Positions 1,864 to 22,696 of a stretch of DNA of 33,188 bases are shown piece by piece (position 1 is the first letter of the stretch; each line of letters begins with the position of its first letter). A program made the translations under genes and the position numbers. The notes under the pieces were generated by a model. It saw only the letters and a list, made by a program, of their open reading frames with translations, did not search any database and was not told the DNA's origin. Source of the DNA: Bryobacterales bacterium (GTDB lineage Bacteria > Acidobacteriota > Terriglobia > Bryobacterales > Bryobacteraceae); contig CANIHR010000019.1 of NCBI GenBank assembly GCA_947467185.1, positions 1-33,188 on the forward strand, written 5' to 3'.

Positions 1864-1956
1864 CTAAATTACAACCACATGAATTACAATTCCGCTACAT
1901 TTGAGTGAACGCAACGTCTTCCTTATCTTAACTTTACAGACATATTTTTGAAACAC

Positions 1957-1993: not shown

Positions 1994-2734
1994 ATGTCTC
2001 GAAAACTCCTACTCGCATCCCTGCTGCTTTGCAGCGGTCTTCAGGCGCAGGTCGCCATTGTTAACGCCGCCAGCTTCGCCACCAATCAGGGCGTCGCGGC
2101 CGGCTCCTGGGCTGCCGCCTTCGGCACCTTCAGCGGTATCGCCACCACAACCGCGACGACGCTCCCCTTCCCAACCTCTCTGGCTGGGGTAAAGCTCACT
2201 ATTAACGGCGTCGCCGCCCCGCTGTTCGACGTGCGGCAGACTCAGATCACCTTCCTCGTCCCCGCTGGCGTCACCGCGGGCCTGCAACCTGTCGTTGTCA
2301 CCACACCACTTGGGGCCACCAACGGCAATGTCCGCATTGTTTCCGCTGCTCCTGGCATCTTCCCGAAGGAAGGCACGAACCCACCCAAGGGCGCCATCAT
2401 CAACCAGAGTGGTATCGAAAACTCCTCTACCCTGCCGGCGAAAAAGGGCGAAGTCATTTCGATCTATGGCACCGGCCCCGGCGCTTTCAAGGCGGCCTAC
2501 ACAGACGGTATCGCCCCCGGTGCAACCCCGCTTGTGGAAACAAGCTCTACCCCTCAGGTCTTTATTGGTGGCGTCTCCGCCGAAGTGAAGTACTCGGGCC
2601 TGAACCCCTCCTCGCCCGGCCTGTGGCAGATCAACGTGGTGGTCCCGAATCTCGCTTTCATCACCGGCAAAGTCCCGGTCAGCATCTTCATCGACGGCGT
2701 CGATTCGAACCAGGTGGCTGTGTTTGTCCAGTAG
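1994..2734 (+). CDS. Secreted single-domain TIGR03437-family protein (Solibacter C-terminal domain)
   Basis: Signal peptide MSRKLLLASLLLCSGLQA, then VNAASFA...SLAGVKLTINGVAAPLFDVRQTQITFLVPAG...APGIF...GAIINQSGIENSSTLPAKKGEVISIYGTGPG...TPQVFIGGVSAEVKYSGL...GLWQINVVVP, the TIGR03437 pattern. Confidence 0.85.
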   Translation: MSRKLLLASLLLCSGLQAQVAIVNAASFATNQGVAAGSWAAAFGTFSGIATTTATTLPFPTSLAGVKLTINGVAAPLFDVRQTQITFLVPAGVTAGLQPVVVTTPLGATNGNVRIVSAAPGIFPKEGTNPPKGAIINQSGIENSSTLPAKKGEVISIYGTGPGAFKAAYTDGIAPGATPLVETSSTPQVFIGGVSAEVKYSGLNPSSPGLWQINVVVPNLAFITGKVPVSIFIDGVDSNQVAVFVQ

Positions 2735-5480
2735 TCTCAAAACTCTCGCAATACTGTTGGTCGGTACTTTCTCTCTTCTCGCACAAACCGGAAAGGGGAC
2801 TGTCTCCGGAACGGTATTTGACAGCCGCTCGGGGCGCGGGGTGGTCGGGGCCTCTATCGCCATCAACGGCCAGTCCGATGGACGCACCCTGACCGATGCG
2901 CAGGGCAAGTATGTGATTACTCTTTCGCCCGGAACTTACACACTGGACTTCTCAGCGAATAAGTACGCGAAAGTCCAGCTAACCGGTGTGGAAGTCAAAA
3001 GTAACGAGAACGCCGACGCAAGCACCGTCATGTCCGATCTCTCCCAAACCAACACCAGTGTTGACGTTGTGGAGAAGATCGGCGCCCTGGAAGCCACGGC
3101 AGAAGCCATGCTGACAGAACGCAAGCTCTCCGCAGTAGTCAGCGATGCCATCAGCCGCTCTGAACTCGCGTCGGGCACCTCCGGCAATGCCGCAGCCGCT
3201 CTGGAAAAGGTAACGGGCGTGAGCGTAGTCGGCGACGGCTTCGTCTATGTCCGCGGTCTCGGCGAGCGCTACAGTTCGACCCAACTCAACGGAGCAGCGG
3301 TCCCCACCACAGAACCGGAAAAGCGAGTCGTATCCCTCGACCTGTTTCCCACCGGCATGATCGAGAACATCCAGATCAACAAGACTTACTCTCCCGATCT
3401 CCCTCTGGAATTTTCGGGTGGCCTGGTCCAGATGAAGACGGTGGACTTTCCCACGCAGAAGATCCTGAACTTCTCCGTGAAGACCGGCTACAACACGGTC
3501 ACTACCAACAATCCTTTCCTGACATCACCGTCCGCCTCCGGCGATTTCTGGGGCTACGGGGGCGGCGCACGCTCTCTACCCTCAGTCATCCCCGCCGATG
3601 CGCGACTCTTCTCCGGACAATTCACCTCCGCCGAACTCCAGACCTTTGGACGCGCTTTCTCCAACACCTGGCAGCCCACCTCCGCGAAGGCCAGGCCGCA
3701 GTTGGATTTCTCCGGCATGGGTGGCGGTACGTTTGGCCGCTTCGGCATCGTCGGCAGCGTGAGCTTCTCCAACAAGCCCCAACAGCAGAGTGAAGTGCAG
3801 CGCTTCATCCGCCAGGGAGCGGGTTCCCCCCTCATCTTCACCGAATACGGGAACTACAAGGAGTACACAGAAACCGCCCGCCTCGGCGCGGTCTTCAATG
3901 TGGCAGTTCGCCTCACTCCTTCCAACAAGCTCATCTTCCGTAACACCTATACGCACGACGCCGACAAAGCCTCCCGTCAGTTCTCGGGCTACGATGGCGG
4001 CGTTGGTGGTGACCTCGCCGCCGAACGACTCCACTATGTGGAACGCGGTATGACCTCTTCCTCCGTGGAAGGCGAACACTCCGTCGCGAAGTGGAAGAAC
4101 AGCCTGTTCCGCTGGCAGTTCACCTACTCCACCTCCAACAGAAATGAACCGGACCTGCGCGAAGTCATCCGCAACCTGCTCCCCGATGGTCGCTACATCT
4201 TCGCCGCCTCCGGCAGTTCCGGGCTCCGGTTCTTCTCCGACCTGCACGACAAAATCTACGAACCGCAGGGCGACTACAGCGTGCCATTCATGAAGGGCAA
4301 TATCAGCGGCCTGTTCAAAATGGGCTTCCGCGGCACCATACGACGCCGCGATTTCCAGGCACGACGCTTCCTGTACGCTCCGATTCAGCGCTCCACGCTG
4401 GACCTCTTCCTGCCCAGCAACCAGCTCTTCTCCGAAGCCAACGTCCGGCCGAATGGCTTCCAGATCATTGAGTTCACACGCGCCACCGACGCCTACAACG
4501 CCGACATGAACATCATGGCCGGATACGCCATGGTGGATCTCACACTGGGTCCGAAGTGGCGACTCGAAGGTGGCGTCCGCATCGAGAATTCCGACCAGAA
4601 AGTCATCACCTACGATAACCGGATTCCCAACGCCAAACCCATCACGGCAGGTCTGAACAATACCGATCCAGGCCCGGCAGTCAACCTGATCTACTCGGCC
4701 ACCGCGAAGCAGAATATCCGCTTCTCCTTCAGTGAGACCGTCTCGCGTCCGGACTTTCGCGAGCTGTCACCGTTCGACTTCAACAACACGCTCGGAGGCT
4801 TCGTCACAGCCGGCAACCCGGACCTGAAGCGCGCCAAAATCCAGAACTACGACGCCCGTTGGGAGTTCTTCCCCGGTGGCAACCAACTGATCGCGGCCAG
4901 TGTCTTCGCCAAGCGGTTCGACCAGCCCATCGAACAGACCATTGTGCCTTCCAACGATCTGCGGCAGACCTACGTCAACGCCAAATCCGCGCGCAACATC
5001 GGCTTCGAACTGGAGTTCCGCCGGTCGATGCGCAGCGTCACTCCAAAGCTAAAAGACTTCGGCGTTCAGTCAAACTTCACCTTCGTCGATTCCAGCATTC
5101 AGATCAAGCCGGAAGACGCGACGATCGTCACCTCGCAGACACGTCCTCTACTGGGTCAGTCAAAGTACATCGTCAACGGAATTGTGGAGTGGAAACGGCC
5201 AGGCCTCCGCTCGGACGCCCGCTTCTACGCCAACCATGTCTCCCGGCGAATTTCCGATGTCGGCACCTTCAAAGTCCCCGACATCTACCAGGAAGCCAAC
5301 ACCTTCCTCGACTTCGTTTACCAGTTCATCCCCCGCCGTGAAAAGAGCCGCTGGTCGGTACGTTTCGACGCTCAGAACCTGAGCGACAACACGTACCGCT
5401 GGACGCAGGGGCCCTTTGTGCAGCGGGAATACAAGGTTGGCCGGACGTTTTCGGTCGGTCTGAATTATTCGATTTTCTAG
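2724..5480 (+). CDS. TonB-dependent receptor with N-terminal carboxypeptidase-regulatory-like domain
   Basis: TTG start overlapping the upstream stop; signal peptide; GTVSGTVFDSRSGRGVVGASIAINGQ; plug motif VVGDGFVYVRGLGERYSSTQLNGAAVPTTEPEKRVVSLDLFP; C-terminal aromatic beta-strand FSVGLNYSIF. Confidence 0.92.
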   Translation: MSSSLKTLAILLVGTFSLLAQTGKGTVSGTVFDSRSGRGVVGASIAINGQSDGRTLTDAQGKYVITLSPGTYTLDFSANKYAKVQLTGVEVKSNENADASTVMSDLSQTNTSVDVVEKIGALEATAEAMLTERKLSAVVSDAISRSELASGTSGNAAAALEKVTGVSVVGDGFVYVRGLGERYSSTQLNGAAVPTTEPEKRVVSLDLFPTGMIENIQINKTYSPDLPLEFSGGLVQMKTVDFPTQKILNFSVKTGYNTVTTNNPFLTSPSASGDFWGYGGGARSLPSVIPADARLFSGQFTSAELQTFGRAFSNTWQPTSAKARPQLDFSGMGGGTFGRFGIVGSVSFSNKPQQQSEVQRFIRQGAGSPLIFTEYGNYKEYTETARLGAVFNVAVRLTPSNKLIFRNTYTHDADKASRQFSGYDGGVGGDLAAERLHYVERGMTSSSVEGEHSVAKWKNSLFRWQFTYSTSNRNEPDLREVIRNLLPDGRYIFAASGSSGLRFFSDLHDKIYEPQGDYSVPFMKGNISGLFKMGFRGTIRRRDFQARRFLYAPIQRSTLDLFLPSNQLFSEANVRPNGFQIIEFTRATDAYNADMNIMAGYAMVDLTLGPKWRLEGGVRIENSDQKVITYDNRIPNAKPITAGLNNTDPGPAVNLIYSATAKQNIRFSFSETVSRPDFRELSPFDFNNTLGGFVTAGNPDLKRAKIQNYDARWEFFPGGNQLIAASVFAKRFDQPIEQTIVPSNDLRQTYVNAKSARNIGFELEFRRSMRSVTPKLKDFGVQSNFTFVDSSIQIKPEDATIVTSQTRPLLGQSKYIVNGIVEWKRPGLRSDARFYANHVSRRISDVGTFKVPDIYQEANTFLDFVYQFIPRREKSRWSVRFDAQNLSDNTYRWTQGPFVQREYKVGRTFSVGLNYSIF

Positions 5481-5511
5481 GTTTTCAGCAATCAATCCAA
5501 AAGGAGAAATT

Positions 5512-7338
5512 ATGCGAATCGTATCGCTTACACTGCTCGGGCTCGCCGCCATGCTGGCACCCGCCCAGGAACTTATCCCCGTCGACAACGGCCCGGTCAC
5601 AAAACCGGCACCCCAGGCCGTCGTCTATAACGGTCCCCGCGCAAAGGTCTCCATGTATTCATGGAGCAACAAGTACGTCTACCGTGCCGGTGACGCGCTG
5701 ACCCTTAAGTGGACCGTGAAGACCAACGGCGACCTCTACCCCTACACGACCTTCGTCTACCGCCAGAACAATCAGACCGGCGTGAAGACCTGGCTCCCCG
5801 GCAACACGGAGACCCCGACCGATATCAACGGCAACACGCCGGATGCCCTGCAGCCCGCCGTTCTCACTGATGCCAGCAAAGCCATCCTGATCGGTGCCGG
5901 CGGCAAGTTCCCCGCCATCACGCTGCCCACCGAATACGGCATGCACACCATCGCCGTTCAGCTGCGCGACTATACCGGCACTCGCGTTCTGAAGACGTCC
6001 TACATGAAGATCGGCGTCGTGAAGAATGCCACCACCATCACCGGTGACATCACGGCCGACCGGACGCTCACCAACGACACCCAGTGGGACCTCAAGGGCA
6101 TCGTCTACGTAAAGAACGGTGCGACGCTCACCGTGGAACCCGGCACTTTCGTGTTCGGCCAGCCCGGCACCGCGCCTCCCTCCGCCCTGATCATCACCCA
6201 GACTGGCAAGATCATTGCGAACGGCACGAAGTCCCGTCCCATCGTCATGACCAGCTCTCAGGCCTTTGGCTCCCGCATCCGCGGCGACTGGGGTGGCCTC
6301 GTAATGCTCGGCAAGGCTCCCATCAATGTTGGCGGCAACATCGCGGGCGGCGCAACCTGCGGTACCGGTGGCTGCAAGAACGAACCCGGCACGTTCTACA
6401 TTGAAGGTCTCGTTGGCAACCCGGACAGCCTTTACGGTGGCACCGATGCCAACCACAACTGTGGTTCGCTCAAGTACGTCCGCGTGGAATACGCCGGCAC
6501 CATCCTCTCCCCCAACAACGAACTCAACTCCTTCACCTGGGGTGGTTGCGGCAAGCAGACAGTTGCCGAGCACCTGCAGGCCATCGAAGGCAAGGATGAC
6601 TGCTTCGAATGGTTTGGTGGTAACAACGATGCCAGATGGCTGGTTGGCGGCAACTGCGCCGACGACTACACCGATTACCAGCTCGGCTACACCGGCCGCG
6701 TCCAGTATGGTCTGATGTACCAGTCCCCCGATTCCAACGGCAATCGTGGCGTGGAAGGCGACAACAGCGAATACGACAATGCCGCCGTCCCGTTCTCGAA
6801 CCCCACTTTCTACAACATCACCTACTTCGGCAGCGGCGTCCCCGGCTTCGATGAAGCGGCTGCTCCCGGCTTGTTCGTCCGGCGAGGAAGTCGAGGGTCG
6901 TTTAACAATCTGGCCTTCATGAATTACTACAGCCCCTGCATCAGCGTCTCGGACGCCAACACCCAGGCGCAGGCAGATCTCGGCAACCTGACCATGAACG
7001 GCATTCTCTGCTACAACAACAACATCGGTGGCAAGGGCACCAACACCCTAACGGGCCAGATCCTGACCGCTTACGACCAGGCCTACGCCCAGGGCCAGAA
7101 GGGCAACGGCGCCGGCAAGAACTTCCTCTTCTCCGATCCGTTCATCACCCGCCCCTTCGAATACAGCGATCCGGATTTCATGGGTCTGTTCGGCAGCCCG
7201 CTCTTCCGGGCCGGCTGGATTTCGCCTCCCGATGATGGCTTCTTCGACCAGACGGCGAAGTTCATCGGCGGCATCGGTGATGAGGACTGGACCGAAGAAT
7301 GGACCAGCTTCCTGATCGAAAATGACATAAAGCCGTAA
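5512..7338 (+). CDS. Secreted beta-helix-like protein of uncharacterised family commonly seen beside TonB-dependent receptors
   Basis: SD AAGGAGA upstream; signal peptide MRIVSLTLLGLAAMLAPAQ; ITGDITADRTLTNDTQWDLKGIVYVKNGATLTVEPGTFVFGQPG...ANGTKSRPIVMTSSQAFGSRIRGDWGGLVMLGKAPIN...LKYVRVEYAG. Confidence 0.75.
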   Translation: MRIVSLTLLGLAAMLAPAQELIPVDNGPVTKPAPQAVVYNGPRAKVSMYSWSNKYVYRAGDALTLKWTVKTNGDLYPYTTFVYRQNNQTGVKTWLPGNTETPTDINGNTPDALQPAVLTDASKAILIGAGGKFPAITLPTEYGMHTIAVQLRDYTGTRVLKTSYMKIGVVKNATTITGDITADRTLTNDTQWDLKGIVYVKNGATLTVEPGTFVFGQPGTAPPSALIITQTGKIIANGTKSRPIVMTSSQAFGSRIRGDWGGLVMLGKAPINVGGNIAGGATCGTGGCKNEPGTFYIEGLVGNPDSLYGGTDANHNCGSLKYVRVEYAGTILSPNNELNSFTWGGCGKQTVAEHLQAIEGKDDCFEWFGGNNDARWLVGGNCADDYTDYQLGYTGRVQYGLMYQSPDSNGNRGVEGDNSEYDNAAVPFSNPTFYNITYFGSGVPGFDEAAAPGLFVRRGSRGSFNNLAFMNYYSPCISVSDANTQAQADLGNLTMNGILCYNNNIGGKGTNTLTGQILTAYDQAYAQGQKGNGAGKNFLFSDPFITRPFEYSDPDFMGLFGSPLFRAGWISPPDDGFFDQTAKFIGGIGDEDWTEEWTSFLIENDIKP

Positions 7339-7366
7339 CAAAACGGCAGAAACAGCGCTTCCTTCG

Positions 7367-7399
7367 GGCCGGATCCAGAGATGGATCCGGCCTTTTTTT
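7367..7399 (+). terminator. Rho-independent terminator after the beta-helix gene
   Basis: Perfect 11-bp stem GGCCGGATCCA / TGGATCCGGCC with GAGA loop followed by T7. Confidence 0.95.
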
Positions 7400-7436: not shown

Positions 7437-7480
7437 AGTGACGCAATCTTAACAGTGGAGTAACTGATCTGTAACCGTTT
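7437..7480 (+). promoter_or_regulatory. Four 11-bp-phased direct repeats (Pho-box-like operator candidate) upstream of TBDR
   Basis: AGTGACGCAAT|CTTAACAGTGG|AGTAACTGATC|TGTAACCGTTT; TGAC/TAAC/TAAC/TAAC begin at 7439, 7450, 7461, 7472, exactly 11 bp apart. Confidence 0.55.
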
Positions 7481-7494
7481 TCCCCGTAGCCTGA

Positions 7495-7513
7495 AGGTGT
7501 CAACATGACACCT
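7495..7513 (+). promoter_or_regulatory. Perfect inverted repeat spanning the start codon of the TBDR
   Basis: AGGTGTCA-ACA-TGACACCT (7495-7502 / 7506-7513); start codon is 7505-7507. Confidence 0.55.
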
Positions 7514-10500
7514 AAAAAACTAATTGTTTGTTTCGCCCTGTTTGCTGGCCTTGCTGCCGCGCAGGTGGATCAGGCCCGCCTTACCGGGACCGTGTCCGAC
7601 GCTTCGGGAGGCGTGCTCCCCAGCGTCACCGTCAAAATCACGAACCAGAAAACCGGCGCAGCTCGTGAGGCTGTTACCAATGCCTCCGGCATCTTCTTCG
7701 CCCCCGGCCTTTCCGCTTCCAACTACACCATTACCGCCTCCGCAGCAGGTCTGGAACCCGCTGAATACAAAGACGTCAACCTCGCCGTGGGTCAGGAACG
7801 AACCCTCAACATCACCCTGCAGGCCGCCGGCGTCACCACCTCGGTGACGGTTTCGGGCGGCGATCTCGCCGTTGTCGAAACCAGTTCCGCCACCGTCGGT
7901 GCCAATGTCAACGCCCGCGAAGTGGCCGAAATGCCCATCAACGGCCGTCAGATCTCTCAGCTTTACCTCCTCACCCCCGGTGCCCAGTCTTCCGGCGGTG
8001 GCTCTTTCGACAACATCCGCTTCAGCGGCCGGTCGAACCAGCAGAACGCCGTGAAGTTCGACGGCGTCGAAGGTTCCGCCATCGTCGATGCTTCGCCTGG
8101 TAACCTGAACGGCCAGACGTCTTCGGCCTTCCGTCTCCAGGCCAGCCTCGAGACAGTGCAGGAATTCCGCGTGGAATCCAGCAATTACCCCGCTGAGTAC
8201 GGCACCGGAAGCGGCGGCCAGATCAGCATCATCACCAAGTCCGGCGGCAACGAATACCACGGCAGCGTCTTCGAGTACCTCCGCAACGACGCGCTCGACG
8301 CCCGCAACTACTTCGACGGCCTCAACAAGAACCCCCTCCGTCTGAACCAGTTTGGTGGCTCCGTCGGCGGCGCCATCATTAAGGACAAGCTCTTCTTCTT
8401 CGGCCACTATGAAGGTCTCCGGCAGCACGCCGGAATCGCCCTCGTCGGTCAGACGCCCTCCGCCGCCGTTCGCAACCTGCCCGTCTGCGCCACCGGCGTC
8501 GTCGGTCGCTGCGTCGATTCCCAGATCAAGCCCCTCTTCGGTGCCTTCCCCCTGGGCAACCGCGGTGCCACCTCCAACCCTGATTTCGACATCGCGCAGC
8601 TCGATGGCCGCTCCATCGTCAACGAAAACTCCGAGAGCATCCGACTCGACTACCACCAGAACGACAAGAATACCTTTTACGTTCGCTGGTTCCGCGACGA
8701 CGGCACCTCCACTTCGCCCTTCGACGTTTCCGGCAGCGCCTTCCAGCAGAAGGCCCTCAGCCAGAATGGTGTCGCAAGCTGGCAGCGTATCCTTTCCCCC
8801 TCCATCGTGAACGAAGCCAAGTTCGGCTACAACGGCCCCAAGACCCGCACCAACGGCATCGCGCCGGTGGTTCCCGGCCTGGATCTTTCCGCCACCACGC
8901 TGAACATCACGGGTGCCAACGTCCTCGTCGGCATCGGTGGCCAGGGTGCCAGCGCCGGTATCTCCATCCCGTCGGGCCTGGTTCGCGCCAGCTCCGCCAC
9001 CAACGGCCGCGCTCAGCCTTACACGAACTACTCGCTCAGCTACATGGACACTCTGAGCTGGATCAAGGGCAACCACAACTTCAAGTTCGGTGGTGAGTTC
9101 CGCCAGGTTCGGATGTACACCGACCGCCTCGGCGGCGTGACCTACGCGTTCGGCAACCTCGATTCCTTCCTTGCCAACACGCCCTCCATCAGTGTTCTGG
9201 GCGACCTGAGTTCCCCCAGCCCGTTCAACGGCGGCGCCACGGGCAACCGCCTCGGCAAGACCGAAATGTTCAGCGCCTACGCGCAGGACGAATACAAGCT
9301 CACCCCCGAGCTGACCCTGAGCTACGGTCTGCGCTATGAGTACTACACGCCGATGCGCGAAGACCGCAATCTGGTGGTGCTCTACAACGTCTCAACGGGT
9401 GGCCTCGACGCCCCCGGCAGCCGCCCCTTCTACCAGACTTCGAAGACAGCCTTTGGCCCCCGCCTCGGCATCAGCTACGCGCCGAAAGCGCTCCATGGCA
9501 AGACCGTCATCCGCATCGGTGGTGGTTACTACTACGGGCCCGGTCAGGGCGAAGACCTCATCCAGCCGATCGAAAGCGACCGTGTCAGCACAACCGCCAC
9601 GGGCCGTTACCCGATCGACCCGCTGCCGATCATCAAGAACTTCAACATCAATACTGCAACCGGCATCGGTGTCCGCGCTTACGCCTCGGGCTACAAGGTT
9701 CCGGAGAAGATCCTCTCTTACACGTTCTCCGTGCAGCAGACCCTGCCCTTCAACGCGGTGCTCCAGGTCGCTTACGTCGGCAGCCAGGGCCGCAACCTCT
9801 TCCTCCGCTCCATCGCGAATAAGGTCACCGGCTTCACCATGAATCCGACGACCGGTGTGGCGTCAGCGGTTCGCGAGTTCGGTTCCCGCTTCGGCGAAAT
9901 CGACTACAAGACCACGGGCGGCAACGACAACTACAACTCGATGCAGACCACCCTCAACCGTCGCTTCAGCAAGGGTCTGACGCTCGGCGCACAGTGGACC
10001 TGGGCGCACTCCATCGGTAACACCGGTGGTTCCAACGAAGCCAACACGGCAACCAATCCGTTCAACTTCGCGGCCGACCATGGCAACAATGCCTTCGACG
10101 TTCGCCACTCGGCCAACATGACCGCTCTGTATGAACTGCCCTTCGGTAAAGGTCGCCAGTTCGCCTCGAACCTCAACAAAGCGGCCGATGCGATCATCGG
10201 TGGCTGGCAACTGGGCGGTGTTCTCAACGCCCGCACCGGCCTGCCGATCGACATCCGCATCACCCGCCCCGATATCGTTTATCGCGACACCCGCTCCAAC
10301 GCGATCGTGAACTCGCCCATCGTGGTGAACGGAACGCCGGCTACGGTTCCTGTGATCAACGTGCCCGGCGGCGGCAACTCCCGCGACGTCCGGTTCCCGA
10401 ATGTGGTGGCAGGTGTCAATCCCTTCCTCGAAAACGCTACCGACAAGCGCTTCATCCTGAACCCGGCCGCCTTCGCAATCCCGGCTCCTGGCACCTTCGG

Positions 10501-10819
10501 GAACCTCGGTCGCGGCGCACTGCACGGCCCCGGCCTCAGCCAGTTCGATCTCACCATGCACAAGAAGTTCAACATCACCGAGCGGATCAACACGGAACTC
10601 CGTATCGAGGTGTACAACATCTTCAACAAAGCAAACTTCGCAAACCCGGCGGTCCGCCTGAACAACGTTCTCGGAACCTCCGGCAACACATTGCAGCCCG
10701 GCCAGCCTTACACCGCCACCACCGGTGGTTCGTTCGGCTCGGTGCTCTCCACTGTGGAAAGCGCCGTCGGTCTCGGTGCCCAGCGTCAGGTCCAGATGTC
10801 ACTTCGTGTGAACTTCTAA
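7505..10819 (+). CDS. TonB-dependent receptor, Oar-like with N-terminal carboxypeptidase-regulatory-like domain
   Basis: QARLTGTVSDASGGVLPSVTVKITNQKTGAAREAVTNASGIFFAPGL; plug-like region NQQNAVKFDGVE...EFRVESSNYPAEYGTGSGGQISIITKSGGNEYHGSVFEYLRNDALDARNYFD; terminal QVQMSLRVNF. Confidence 0.93.
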   Translation: MTPKKLIVCFALFAGLAAAQVDQARLTGTVSDASGGVLPSVTVKITNQKTGAAREAVTNASGIFFAPGLSASNYTITASAAGLEPAEYKDVNLAVGQERTLNITLQAAGVTTSVTVSGGDLAVVETSSATVGANVNAREVAEMPINGRQISQLYLLTPGAQSSGGGSFDNIRFSGRSNQQNAVKFDGVEGSAIVDASPGNLNGQTSSAFRLQASLETVQEFRVESSNYPAEYGTGSGGQISIITKSGGNEYHGSVFEYLRNDALDARNYFDGLNKNPLRLNQFGGSVGGAIIKDKLFFFGHYEGLRQHAGIALVGQTPSAAVRNLPVCATGVVGRCVDSQIKPLFGAFPLGNRGATSNPDFDIAQLDGRSIVNENSESIRLDYHQNDKNTFYVRWFRDDGTSTSPFDVSGSAFQQKALSQNGVASWQRILSPSIVNEAKFGYNGPKTRTNGIAPVVPGLDLSATTLNITGANVLVGIGGQGASAGISIPSGLVRASSATNGRAQPYTNYSLSYMDTLSWIKGNHNFKFGGEFRQVRMYTDRLGGVTYAFGNLDSFLANTPSISVLGDLSSPSPFNGGATGNRLGKTEMFSAYAQDEYKLTPELTLSYGLRYEYYTPMREDRNLVVLYNVSTGGLDAPGSRPFYQTSKTAFGPRLGISYAPKALHGKTVIRIGGGYYYGPGQGEDLIQPIESDRVSTTATGRYPIDPLPIIKNFNINTATGIGVRAYASGYKVPEKILSYTFSVQQTLPFNAVLQVAYVGSQGRNLFLRSIANKVTGFTMNPTTGVASAVREFGSRFGEIDYKTTGGNDNYNSMQTTLNRRFSKGLTLGAQWTWAHSIGNTGGSNEANTATNPFNFAADHGNNAFDVRHSANMTALYELPFGKGRQFASNLNKAADAIIGGWQLGGVLNARTGLPIDIRITRPDIVYRDTRSNAIVNSPIVVNGTPATVPVINVPGGGNSRDVRFPNVVAGVNPFLENATDKRFILNPAAFAIPAPGTFGNLGRGALHGPGLSQFDLTMHKKFNITERINTELRIEVYNIFNKANFANPAVRLNNVLGTSGNTLQPGQPYTATTGGSFGSVLSTVESAVGLGAQRQVQMSLRVNF

Positions 10820-12427: not shown

Positions 12428-15118
12428 ATGAGCACTAACCGCCGGGCAGCACTGCGATTCCTGATCCTGCTCTCCCCTGCCCTCCTGGGTGCCGACGCCG
12501 GCACCGATTTCTTCGAAGCCCGCATCCGCCCCGTGCTCGCCGAACGCTGCTACGGTTGCCACAGTTCCAAACTCCGCGAACCCAAAGCCGACCTCCGCCT
12601 GGACGGCCCCGCGCCCACCGTCATCACCCCCGGCAAGCCCGACGAAAGCAAGCTCCTCAAAGCGATCTCGTACACCGATTTCCGCCTCCGCATGCCCCCC
12701 ACCGGCAAGCTGCCAGACTCGGTCATCGCCGATTTCACCGAGTGGGTCAAGATGGGTGCCCCCGATCCCCGAACCGCTGTCACCGTGGAAGCCCGCGCCC
12801 TGCCCCCTGGTCTCGACCTCGACCGCGGACGCCGTTTCTGGGCCTTTCAGCCCGTGGTCGCCACCCCACCCCCTGCCGTCAAAAACAAACTCTGGTCCAA
12901 AACCGACTCCGACCGCTTCCTCCTCGCCGCCCTCGAAGCCAAAGGCCTGAAGCCCGCCCCCGAAGCCGACAAACGCTCCTGGCTCCGCCGCGTCACCTTC
13001 GATCTGACGGGTCTACCGCCCACTCCCGCCGAGATGGATGCCTTCCTCGCCGCCGGCAACTACGAAGCGGTGGTTGACCGCCTCCTCGCCTCCCCGCACT
13101 ACGGCGAACGCTGGGCACGCCACTGGCTCGACCTCGTCCGCTACGCCGAAACCAACGGCCACGAATACGACAACAACAAGCTCGACGCCTGGCAATACCG
13201 CGACTACGTCATCCGCGCCTTCAATGAGGACCTCCCGTTCAACCGCTTCGTCCAGGAACACCTCGCCGGCGACCTCCTCGAAGACCAGCGCACCTCCAAA
13301 GACGGCCGCTTCCTCGAATCCCCCATCGCGACCAATTTCTACTGGTTCGGCGAAGTCCTCAACTCCGCCACAGACTCCGTAAAGTCCAAAGCCGACAACG
13401 TCGACAACCAGGTCGATGTCATCGCCAAGAGCTTCCTCGGCCTCACCGTCGCCTGCGCCCGCTGCCACGACCACAAATTCGACCCCATTCCGACCCGCGA
13501 CTACTACGGCCTTGCCGGCATCATGCACTCCACGGGGATGCGCGAAGTCGTGATTGACTCGCCCGCCCAGGCCCGCGCGATCCACCGCGCCCACGAAGCC
13601 GCCCCCGCCACCACCCGCAACCCCGGCCGGGCGAAGATCCAACTCCGCCCCGGCGAAACTCTATGGGAAGACTTCACCGATCTCACCACCAACGCCTGGC
13701 ACCAAAGCGGTGAGGCTTTCGCCACCGGTCCCCGTGACGGCGTGATCGACTCGGCCGGACGCGGCGTCAACGAACTGGTCGGCTCCCTCACCTCAAAGAA
13801 GTTCAAAATGCCGAACCACTACGTCCACGTTCGGCTGAACGCCACAAAGGGCAACGGGAGCCTCGTCGAGCGCGAACCCATCCGCCTCACCCTCGTCGCC
13901 GACGATTACAAGAGCATCCACTACATGGGTTCCGGCAAAACGCCCGGCAAGTTCGAATGGATCTCGTACCGCATGACGCTGCCCTTCGAACGCCAGTGTT
14001 ACTTCGAACTGGTGGACCGCTCCCGCACCGGAGCCATCGCGGTGGACGCCATCGTTTTCTCCGAAGAAAAAGACCCGCCGCCCACCATCGAAGAAACTCC
14101 CGCCGAGTGGGCCGAACCCGCCCCGCAACCGCAGCTTCCCGCCTCCACCTTCGGCATGGTCGCCTGGGACGAAGCCCCCGGCAACACCAAACTCCACATT
14201 CGCGGCAGCCACCAGAACCTCGGCGAAGAAGTTCCGCGCCACTTCCTGCAGGTGATTTCGAAGGACGGCACGCACCCCGCCATTACCGGCAGCGGTCGCC
14301 TGGAACTCGCCAACTGGATGACCGGCGAAGCGGCCCCGCTGCTCGCCCGCGTCTACGTCAACCGCCTCTGGGAACACCACTTCGGCGATGGCCTCGTCCG
14401 CACCGCTGACAACTTCGGCGTGATGGGAGAACGCGCCACCAACCGCGAACTCCTCGACACCCTCTCCGCCAAATTCATCGCCGGGGGTTGGAGCACAAAA
14501 GCCCTGCAGCGCGAAATGGTCCTATCAGCGGCCTATCGAATGAGCAGCAAGGACGACCCCGTTGCCGCGAAAGCCGATCCCCGCAACGACCTGCTCCACC
14601 ACTACCCCGTGCGACGCCTCGAAGCCGAACCCATCCGAGATGCGATCCTTTCCGTCTCCGGTTCCCTCGACAAGACGCTCTACGGCCCCAGCATCGTACC
14701 GCACATCAGCGAATACCAGAACGGGCGCGGTAAGCCGAAGTCCGGCCCCCTCGACGGTGCCGGTCGCCGCAGCATCTACATCGAAGTCCGCCGCAACTTC
14801 CTGACGCCGCTCTTCCTCGCCTTCGATTACCCCCTGCCTATCTCCACCATCGGAGTCCGTAACCGCTCCACCGTTCCCTCGCAGGCCCTCATGCTGATGA
14901 ACAACGAGTTCGTGCTGCAGCAGGCCGGACGCTGGGCAGACAGCCTCTCAGGCACGCCCGAACCCGACCGTATACCCCTGATGTACCGTCAGGCGTTCGG
15001 ACGCCCCCCGCAGCCCGCAGAGCTTCAGGAAGCCAATACCTTCCTAAAGGACGGCGGCACGCTGGCAGGTCTCGCCCACGTCCTCTTCAATTCTCCGGAG
15101 TTCATTTATGTCCAGTAG
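12428..15118 (+). CDS. PSD1 and planctomycete-cytochrome-C domain protein (DUF1549/DUF1553)
   Basis: CYGCHSSKLREPKADLRLDG (CxxCH), PHYGERWARHWLDLVRYAETNGHEYD, CARCHDHKFDPIPTRDYYGLAGI, NRSTVPSQALMLMNNEFV. Confidence 0.95.
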   Translation: MSTNRRAALRFLILLSPALLGADAGTDFFEARIRPVLAERCYGCHSSKLREPKADLRLDGPAPTVITPGKPDESKLLKAISYTDFRLRMPPTGKLPDSVIADFTEWVKMGAPDPRTAVTVEARALPPGLDLDRGRRFWAFQPVVATPPPAVKNKLWSKTDSDRFLLAALEAKGLKPAPEADKRSWLRRVTFDLTGLPPTPAEMDAFLAAGNYEAVVDRLLASPHYGERWARHWLDLVRYAETNGHEYDNNKLDAWQYRDYVIRAFNEDLPFNRFVQEHLAGDLLEDQRTSKDGRFLESPIATNFYWFGEVLNSATDSVKSKADNVDNQVDVIAKSFLGLTVACARCHDHKFDPIPTRDYYGLAGIMHSTGMREVVIDSPAQARAIHRAHEAAPATTRNPGRAKIQLRPGETLWEDFTDLTTNAWHQSGEAFATGPRDGVIDSAGRGVNELVGSLTSKKFKMPNHYVHVRLNATKGNGSLVEREPIRLTLVADDYKSIHYMGSGKTPGKFEWISYRMTLPFERQCYFELVDRSRTGAIAVDAIVFSEEKDPPPTIEETPAEWAEPAPQPQLPASTFGMVAWDEAPGNTKLHIRGSHQNLGEEVPRHFLQVISKDGTHPAITGSGRLELANWMTGEAAPLLARVYVNRLWEHHFGDGLVRTADNFGVMGERATNRELLDTLSAKFIAGGWSTKALQREMVLSAAYRMSSKDDPVAAKADPRNDLLHHYPVRRLEAEPIRDAILSVSGSLDKTLYGPSIVPHISEYQNGRGKPKSGPLDGAGRRSIYIEVRRNFLTPLFLAFDYPLPISTIGVRNRSTVPSQALMLMNNEFVLQQAGRWADSLSGTPEPDRIPLMYRQAFGRPPQPAELQEANTFLKDGGTLAGLAHVLFNSPEFIYVQ

Positions 15119-16493
15119 GCGGAGTTTCCTCACCCGCGCCGCCAACGGTTTCGGCGGCCTCGCCCTCATGCAGATGCTCGCGGAAGCCGCCACGAAGAAC
15201 GGCACCCATCACCCCGCGAAAGCGAAAGCCGTCATCTTCCTCTTCATGGACGGCGGCCCGTCGCAGATGGACACTTTCGACCCCAAGCCCCGACTCCGCC
15301 TCGACCACGGCAAGAAACTCCCCTTCAAGCCACCCACCACTGTTTTCAACATCAGCGATCAGGTCTTCGGCTCGCCCTTCGACTTCAAACAGTACGGTCA
15401 AAGCGGAGCCACTGTTAGCGAACTCTTCCCCCACGTCGCCACCTGCGTGGACGACATCGCCATCATCCGTTCCATGGTGGCCGACCACTCCGAACACACC
15501 GCCGCCAACTACTTCATACACTCCGGCTCCGGCTTCCAGGGACGCCCCAGCATGGGTTCCTGGATCAATTACGGTCTCGGCTCGGAAAGCGACAACCTCC
15601 CCGGCTTCATCGTGCTGGAAAGCGGTCTCATTCCCCCCGGCGGTCTCGACTGCTTCTCCAGCGGCTTCCTTCCCGCCAGCTACCAGGGCACCGTCTTCCG
15701 CAAGGGCGAACACCCCATCGCCGACCTGACGCCGCCCGCTTCCGAAGCCGCCGCGCAGCAGAAAAAACTCGCTCTCCTCGGAAAACTGAACAAAGGCGCC
15801 GTCGCGCGCTTCGGCGAAGTCAGCGAGATCGACGCCACCATTCAGAACTACGAACTCGCCTTCCGAATGCAGTCCGCCGTCCCCGAGCTTCTCGACTTCT
15901 CAAAGGAATCGGAAGCCACCAAAGAACTCTACGGCCTGAACGACAAGATGACCGAAGAGTTCGGCCGCGAGTGCCTTCTCGCCCGGCGTCTGGTCGAAAA
16001 AGGCGTCCGCTTCGTGGAACTCCTCACCCCCGCCCGTCCCGGCCTCGACCGCTGGGACCAGCACAGCGGCCTCGCCAACGGTCACCGCATCAACGCGCAA
16101 TCTACGGACAAGCCCATTGCCGCGCTGCTCAAAGATCTTAAGCAACGGGGCATGCTCGATCAGACCCTCGTTGTCTGGGGTGGTGAATTTGGCCGTACAC
16201 CCTGCGCCCAGCTTCCCGACAACGGCAACATGACCAACGTGGGCCGCGACCACAATCCCTTCGGCTTCACTATGTGGATGGCCGGTGGCGGCACCAAACC
16301 CGGCATCGTCCACGGGGCCACCGACGACTTCGGCTACTTCGCCGTCGAAAACAAAGTCCACGTCCATGACCTGCACGCGACCATGCTGCACTTACTCGGA
16401 ATGGACCACAAGCGCCTCACCTACCGCTACAGCGGCCGGGACATGCGCCTCACCGACGTCGCCGGCAACGTGGTGACAGAGCTTCTCGCTTAG
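15108..16493 (+). CDS. DUF1501 domain-containing protein, Tat-signal
   Basis: SRRSFLTRAANGFGGLALMQML twin-arginine signal; [34 protein letters not shown]...[26 protein letters not shown]; overlaps upstream stop. Confidence 0.95.
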   Translation: MSSRRSFLTRAANGFGGLALMQMLAEAATKNGTHHPAKAKAVIFLFMDGGPSQMDTFDPKPRLRLDHGKKLPFKPPTTVFNISDQVFGSPFDFKQYGQSGATVSELFPHVATCVDDIAIIRSMVADHSEHTAANYFIHSGSGFQGRPSMGSWINYGLGSESDNLPGFIVLESGLIPPGGLDCFSSGFLPASYQGTVFRKGEHPIADLTPPASEAAAQQKKLALLGKLNKGAVARFGEVSEIDATIQNYELAFRMQSAVPELLDFSKESEATKELYGLNDKMTEEFGRECLLARRLVEKGVRFVELLTPARPGLDRWDQHSGLANGHRINAQSTDKPIAALLKDLKQRGMLDQTLVVWGGEFGRTPCAQLPDNGNMTNVGRDHNPFGFTMWMAGGGTKPGIVHGATDDFGYFAVENKVHVHDLHATMLHLLGMDHKRLTYRYSGRDMRLTDVAGNVVTELLA

Positions 16494-21089: not shown

Positions 21090-21976
21090 ATGATAGGAAT
21101 TGGCCGACGCAAAACGATCGCGTTCATCGCGCTCGGCGTCGGCCTTATTCTTTTTACGCTGCTGTTGTATTTCGGCTATCTGGTGTTCGACTGGCGCTCC
21201 GGTATCCGACTTTTTCTTGGCATCATCCTGCTGGCCGCGATCATCGCCGGCGTTGCCCTCAATACCGTCTTCCTCGTGCGCGAAATTCGCCGCGGCGAAC
21301 AGCACGATGCATTCATCAACGCCGTCACCCACGAACTGAAAACCCCTATTGCCTCCATCCGGCTCTACGCCGAAACCCTGAAGTCCCGCCAGGTGGATGA
21401 CGAAAAACGCCAGGAGTTCTACAGCATCATCCTGGCCAACACCGACCGGCTCACCACCACCATTGAACAGATCCTCCGAACCGGTCGTATCGGCTCGTCG
21501 GGCCGGCCGCCCAACCTCGCGCCACTGGACCTCACCGAACTGGTGAAGGAATCGGTTGAGCGCGCCCGCACCCTCCATAAGGTCACTTCGGAAGCCATTC
21601 AGTTCCGCCCCGGTCGACCCTTGCCCATCGTGGGCGATCTCGAAGAAATCCGCGCCGCCGTCTCCAACCTGATCGACAACGCCCTCAAGTACTCCGGCCA
21701 GGGCGCACGCGTCATGGTTTCCGCCGACGAAGTCGACAATCACCGCGCCGAAATCCGCGTCGCCGACAACGGCCCCGGCATCCCCGGCGCCGAACTCAAA
21801 CGAATTTTCAAGCGCTTCTACCGCATGCACGGCCCGCTCGCCACACGCGTTAAAGGTATGGGCCTGGGCCTGTTTATCGTACGCTCTGTCGCCCGTCGCC
21901 ACGGTGGCCGCGCCTGGGCCGAAAGCGCGGGTCCCGGCCGGGGCGCCACCTTCATCATTCAAATCCCTCTAGCCAA

Positions 21977-21980
<4 letters not shown>
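21090..21980 (+). CDS. Sensor histidine kinase (two TM helices, very short extracytoplasmic loop)
   Basis: VTHELKTPIASIRLYAETL H-box; NLIDNALKYSG N-box; VADNGPGIPG; GMGLGLFIVRSVARRHGG; ATGA overlap with RR gene. Confidence 0.94.

Positions 21981-22668
<688 letters not shown>

Positions 22669-22696
<28 letters not shown>

Follow-up and report, generated by a model that had tools for sequence, protein, structure and literature searches.

A predicted PhoB-controlled phosphorus uptake operon at the outer membrane of a Bryobacterales bacterium

A three-gene operon in the genome of a Bryobacterales bacterium, encoding a TIGR03437 protein, a TonB-dependent receptor (TBDR) and a secreted beta-helix protein (BH), very probably constitutes a phosphate-regulated system, controlled by PhoB, for the uptake of phosphorus at the outer membrane. 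This reading draws together gene order, co-occurrence, a site motif, linkage with Pho genes, homology and predicted folds, and the division of labour among the three proteins is less certain than the uptake role itself. Soils and waters poor in phosphorus abound in Acidobacteriota, of which few have been cultured. The reading would provide a testable phosphate function for three families annotated only as a receptor, an unknown domain and an unknown, with a regulator and binding sites predicted for the operon, and it would extend the barely characterised TBDR/beta-helix phosphate system of Caulobacter and Flavobacterium to the Acidobacteriota, Gemmatimonadota, Fibrobacteria and Gammaproteobacteria. 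Literature searches yielded no paper that deals with Pho-linked TBDRs in Acidobacteria or Gemmatimonas.

The window, that is, the whole stretch of DNA that was analysed, comprises 33,188 nucleotides, and the features under discussion are the following:

1928..1954, + strand: degenerate PHO-box-like site ahead of the operon, with three half-sites (TTAAC / GACAT / GAAAC) at an 11-bp period
1994..2734, + strand: TIGR03437 (Soli_cterm) gene, 246 aa, ATG start, product predicted to be secreted
2724..5480, + strand: TBDR gene, 918 aa, TTG start, overlapping the TIGR03437 gene
5512..7338, + strand: BH gene (secreted beta-helix protein), 608 aa, ATG start, 31 nt past the TBDR stop
7366..7399, + strand: intrinsic terminator at the 3' end of the operon, stem 7366-7393 of 12 pairs with a 4-nt loop, T run
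7438..7475, + strand: PHO-box-like site of four half-sites, GTGAC / TTAAC / GTAAC / GTAAC, at an 11-bp period and separated from the next gene by 29 nt
7505..10819, + strand: Oar-like TBDR (PF25183; Pfam 562.9 bits), a separate transcription unit with the box directly upstream

Layout of the operon and pairing of receptor and beta-helix protein

The TIGR03437, TBDR and BH genes are a single operon with a strong terminator. A sequence-only reading of the same DNA had described three open reading frames, of which the first two overlap at a TTG start and the third follows after 31 nt behind a Shine-Dalgarno sequence (AAAGGAG, upstream of the ATG of the BH gene), and all these coordinates agree with ours; the strong terminator that it placed after the triad is likewise present as the 12-pair stem and T run, ranks first among seven candidates, and keeps both stem arms in the sister contig L041. 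The TTG overlap of the TIGR03437 and TBDR genes is also kept in L041, and start-codon overlaps are seen in L042-L045, L073 and L080. By Pfam, the receptor carries an N-terminal CarboxypepD_reg domain (PF13620), a plug (PF07715) and a barrel (PF00593). On either side of the region lies a separate PSD1 (DUF1553)/DUF1501 gene pair, at 1-1863 (cut by the window start) and at 12428-16493.

In the earlier reading the three proteins were supposed to act together, and the triad is indeed syntenic in related genomes; what stands of that supposition is the pair, as TBDR and BH clearly belong together, whereas the TIGR03437 protein is optional, limited to a lineage and not part of the core. An alignment of BH was used to scan a collection of 84,980 species genomes, and the best 80 loci served for the locus counts. 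Among these, in each of the 53 Bryobacterales loci that extend far enough, the TBDR gene immediately precedes the BH gene in the same orientation, and this order and strand are kept in 24 of the 25 loci outside Bryobacterales, which belong to Gemmatimonadota, Bacteroidota, Fibrobacteria, one deltaproteobacterium and one unnamed bacterium; the pair is thus present in Gemmatimonadota, Bacteroidota, Fibrobacteria and Proteobacteria as well as in Bryobacterales. When orthologues of the two proteins were searched separately in 61 related genomes, both were found in 23 and neither in 38, an agreement with a chance of about 3e-17 by simple counting in which the kinship of the genomes is ignored. One order-level genus keeps both genes though on different contigs or far apart, and there a PhoB-like regulator lies directly upstream of the separated TBDR in all five loci examined (L157-L160, L164). 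Within the genus to which the window belongs, the pair is present in only 2 of 19 genomes and is therefore an accessory trait there. Distant BH paralogues without a TBDR (L030-L040) occupy a conserved neighbourhood in order-level relatives, in which no Pho gene was detected.

PHO-box-like repeats and linkage to phosphate genes

The PHO boxes and the phosphate setting are points missing from the sequence-only reading. The half-site motif is KTMAY, repeated at an 11-bp period, so that a triple takes the form KTMAY-N6-KTMAY-N6-KTMAY; it was defined after inspection of these same upstream regions, and it is the contrast between spacings and the independent sites that constitute the actual tests. 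Of 50 Bryobacterales operons, 32 have KTMAY pairs at period 11 in their upstream region, against 0 to 4 for unrelated spacings, and the sole other raised spacing is 22, a multiple of 11 (27/50 operons). Triples are found at period 11 in 18 loci and otherwise just once, at period 22, while the control, period-11 pairs inside the BH gene, gave 0/50. The distance from the site to the first gene of the operon is 31-87 nt in most cases, and outside Bryobacterales the period-11 peak is weaker (6/21).

The box of the operon itself has two mismatches to the triple motif and is not significant alone; TTAACTTTACAGACAT of this box recurs unchanged in L041, the diverged sister contig, where the third half-site is GTAAC and matches the motif. 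The site of four half-sites beyond the terminator is also conserved in L041. In the 5.78-Mb genome there are only four perfect triples: (i) in the window, at 7449-7475, before the Oar-like TBDR; (ii) before a DUF47-Pit phosphate transporter operon; (iii) at L121 (G000:C3:31473-31499), 17 nt before the gene of a secreted retropepsin-like aspartic protease; and (iv) in the ribE/lepA region. A pair of KTMAY half-sites directly precedes phoB here, and does so in three relatives too, as expected for autoregulation. The Oar-like TBDR, which the sister contig (L021/L041) also has beside the triad, probably belongs to the same regulon as the operon. Contigs C1, C21 and C104 carry more genes of the Oar-like kind with similar sites before them, suggesting that the genome may hold several phosphate-controlled receptors of the Oar type.

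Genes related to phosphate also recur in the neighbourhood. Within about 9 kb, a PhoB-like regulator or Pst, PhoU, Ppk, Ppx or Pit genes are found in 25 of the best 80 loci, with Pst, PhoU or polyphosphate genes (Ppk/Ppx) near 11 of the 80, and in 10 Bryobacterales loci the gene immediately preceding the operon encodes a PhoB-like regulator. When representative neighbours were checked against NCBIfam, PhoU, PstC, PstA, PstB, PstS and polyphosphate kinase scored over cut-off, and exopolyphosphatase and PhoB were the best match but below it, the adjacent regulators reaching 219-277 bits against the PhoB equivalog TIGR02154, whose cut-off is 296. The phoB of the window genome lies on another contig, at C53:4779-5456, and is 81% identical to the operon-adjacent one in L088. 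In this genome, which is 96% complete, PstS (TIGR00975) and PhoU (TIGR02135) had no match and PstC had none over cut-off; PstC over cut-off is missing from 8 of the 10 BH-bearing Bryobacterales genomes tested. For linkage in the window genome, phoB and DUF47-Pit were used in place of Pst, and DUF47-Pit, with its PHO-box-like site, may be the route of phosphate uptake. A two-component pair within the window (21090-22696) was considered as PhoRB and rejected: the best models for its response regulator are MtrA/CseB, and those for PhoB rank lower.

It is against this setting that carbon utilisation has to be weighed, according to which the locus would resemble a small PUL, with a beta-helix lyase or glycan-binding protein and a TBDR for oligosaccharides. 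Beta-helix folds are frequent among polysaccharide lyases, the TIGR03437 protein resembles the SGBP-B proteins of glycan loci, and the TBDR matches TIGR01782 (TonB-Xanth-Caul), albeit below threshold (238.3 bits for a curated cut-off of 310). However, the neighbours that recur and could be recognised across the loci compared are Pho genes, the SusD families (PF07980/PF14322) have no match among the window proteins, PHO-box-like repeats lie upstream, and the relatives are phosphate-induced (PMC8115612), so that the use of glycans as a carbon source appears very improbable.

The two secreted proteins

BH has no match in Pfam, NCBIfam, PHROGs or PDB sequences. It has a signal peptide, and the AlphaFold model (mean pLDDT 93, pTM 0.91) predicts an Ig-like domain (residues ~45-170) and a beta-helix (~172-560), for which Foldseek returned weak, generic beta-helix and Ig matches with a TM-score below 0.3 by query length, and for this reason no enzyme class is claimed; as regards membership of the pectate lyases or polygalacturonases, neither a Pfam catalytic family nor a close fold match was found. 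The homology with other BH proteins spans residues ~173-600. The BH profile matches relatives with E-values down to 1e-221, and by BLASTP the window protein is 31-36% identical (E 4e-26 to 3e-65) to T2SS-linked proteins and others from BH-TBDR loci. A lipobox cysteine is absent from the N-terminal region of the window BH and of nine Bryobacterales examples inspected, whereas most of the inspected homologues from other phyla do carry a lipobox; the window protein is accordingly named ElpS-like, and not ElpS. On plasmids of Alteromonas and Pseudoalteromonas (L154, L155), a single lipoprotein of 1356-1362 aa contains three tandem beta-helix domains, its gene adjoining a TBDR gene and lying near ExbB/ExbD/TonB genes.

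Three motifs are invariant across 59 BH homologues, DD-x-FEWFG (362-369), DD-xx-D (384-388) and E-x-D (415-417), and their acidic residues (D362, D363 and E366; D384, D385 and D388; E415 and D417) are located on, or adjacent to, consecutive short strands of the modelled helix. This grouping, judged from the strand positions of the predicted model, suggests a stacked acidic face that would perhaps bind Ca2+. Within the phosphate reading, such residues are placed as a Ca2+ site or an active site could be, and BH might be an enzyme (a phosphatase, a phosphodiesterase, or a lyase that frees phosphorylated polymers) rather than a protein that captures without catalysis; its fold resembles pectate lyases and tailspikes, and supernatants show alkaline phosphatase activity in association with the release of ElpS (PMC2996285). 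That association is nevertheless indirect, the fold matches are weak, and the searches of Pfam, NCBIfam and PDB sequences yielded no catalytic family, so that an enzymatic BH can be entertained only as a tentative, somewhat doubtful possibility.

The TIGR03437 protein was identified as such in the sequence-only reading, and its score with the NCBIfam model (186.6 bits, cut-off 29.05) upholds that assignment; it also matches TIG (PF01833) with 29 bits in Pfam. Its AlphaFold model (pLDDT 92) shows two predicted beta-sandwich domains of the Ig/IPT type, and the best bacterial matches by Foldseek are the IPT-domain SGBP-B proteins of glycan loci, with a low TM-score (about 0.35). A literature search on TIGR03437 found no paper. 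Of the 48 Bryobacterales loci with upstream DNA, 28 have the gene immediately before the TBDR, a placement well beyond chance despite the 68 copies that the generic model matches in this genome; it is absent from the other 20, and was looked for and not found at the TBDR-BH loci of other phyla. The protein is, then, an optional addition of the Bryobacterales, so far seen only in that order. These absences, and the generic nature of the domain, would be accounted for if the gene stood outside the system as nothing other than a frequent neighbour. Yet a profile built from the operon copies of other species, with the window copy and its sister left out, scored the window copy at 298 bits, with the runner-up in this genome at 166, which marks the operon TIGR03437 as a distinct, operon-specific subfamily; moreover, the overlapping start codons of the TIGR03437 and TBDR genes are conserved in several species, and the gene occupies the first place in the operon, behind the box. 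A mere neighbour is consequently unlikely, and the TIGR03437 protein could have a part in ligand capture.

Proposed mechanism and comparison with known systems

The PHO-box-like repeats, the linkage with PhoB and the site before phoB give strong computational support for a control by phosphate starvation, with a degenerate box at the window operon itself. From the evidence as a whole we infer the binding and activation by PhoB under Pi limitation, the secretion of BH and the TIGR03437 protein, the surface location, the formation of a complex, the nature of the ligand and the role of the TIGR03437 protein. When phosphate is short, phosphorylated PhoB would bind the upstream 11-bp direct repeats and turn on the secreted TIGR03437 protein with its two Ig domains, the TBDR and the secreted, ElpS/FII-like BH. 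Outside the outer membrane, BH would capture, or partly hydrolyse, a phosphorus-containing ligand and pass it to the TBDR, which would draw on TonB energy for the import; the TIGR03437 protein would serve as a lineage-specific structural or ligand-presenting spacer. A broader reading is conceivable, although we put it forward with considerable reserve: BH would represent a widespread class of extracellular, non-SusD TBDR partners devoted to phosphorus in several phyla; in Bryobacterales it would form a three-part surface complex with the operon-specific TIGR03437 protein, the first functional setting for that domain; and in genomes without PstSCAB, apparently including this one, the complex would be the main inducible route for scavenging phosphorus across the outer membrane, feeding Pit.

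The system had been taken as uncharacterised in the sequence-only reading, a description that no longer fits the BH/TBDR pair, as this has precedents under phosphate starvation in the ElpS-TBDR pair of Caulobacter and in the FII-TBDT pair of the phoBR cluster of F. johnsoniae; the likeness of BH to ElpS and Fjoh_0546 is drawn through syntenic relatives and published descriptions. ElpS is produced on Pi starvation and exposed at the surface, its gene adjoins that of a TBDR in the layout BH-TBDR-T2SS, and in Caulobacter the partner TBDR is reported not to be phosphate-regulated (PMC2996285). Plasmid homologues of BH in Indioceanicola and Sphingomonas show the order BH-TBDR-gspC/D/E/F, as for elpS, and an Alteromonas homologue lies in the order phoB-phoR-phosphate-binding protein-BH-TBDR-ExbB/ExbD-TonB. 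With ElpS (CC0170)/CC0171 of Caulobacter crescentus the window operon shares the pairing of a secreted protein with a TBDR and, very probably, the context of phosphate starvation. ElpS, however, is a lipoprotein encoded 5' of its TBDR and beside a T2SS, whereas the window BH has no lipobox, lies 3' of the TBDR, and possesses an additional N-terminal Ig-like domain and a TIGR03437 partner; no gsp gene of a nearby T2SS cluster was found among the scanned window ORFs.

In F. johnsoniae, the phoBR cluster encodes the TBDT Fjoh_0545 and the lipoprotein FII Fjoh_0546 (IPR011050), and this phoR-phoB-TBDT-FII locus, PUSIV, is strongly induced by Pi depletion and related to ElpS (Lidbury et al., PMC8115612). 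PUSIV and PUSIII resemble the window system in their carboxypeptidase-regulatory-like TBDR and their IPR011050 (pectin-lyase-fold) partner, and the order PhoB-TBDR-BH of PUSIV equals that of the Bryobacterales loci L052, L088, L089 and L091. In contrast, FII is a lipoprotein and no TIGR03437 gene has been reported there, and in the window genome phoB is on another contig. The SusCD/PusCD systems of Bacteroidota, of which the PusCD class is induced by Pi depletion, also combine a TBDR with an adjacent gene for a secreted partner, but their partner has the SusD fold and that of the window is a beta-helix. SGBP-B resembles the TIGR03437 protein in its tandem IPT/Ig-like domains; the likeness is one of low TM-scores, no glycan-binding domain was identified, and the setting is one of phosphate and not of glycans. 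Thus, as judged from these comparisons, the window system is of the ElpS/FII-TBDR kind, and what would be new in it is a beta-helix protein with no lipobox and with an N-terminal Ig-like domain, together with TIGR03437 as a third subunit.
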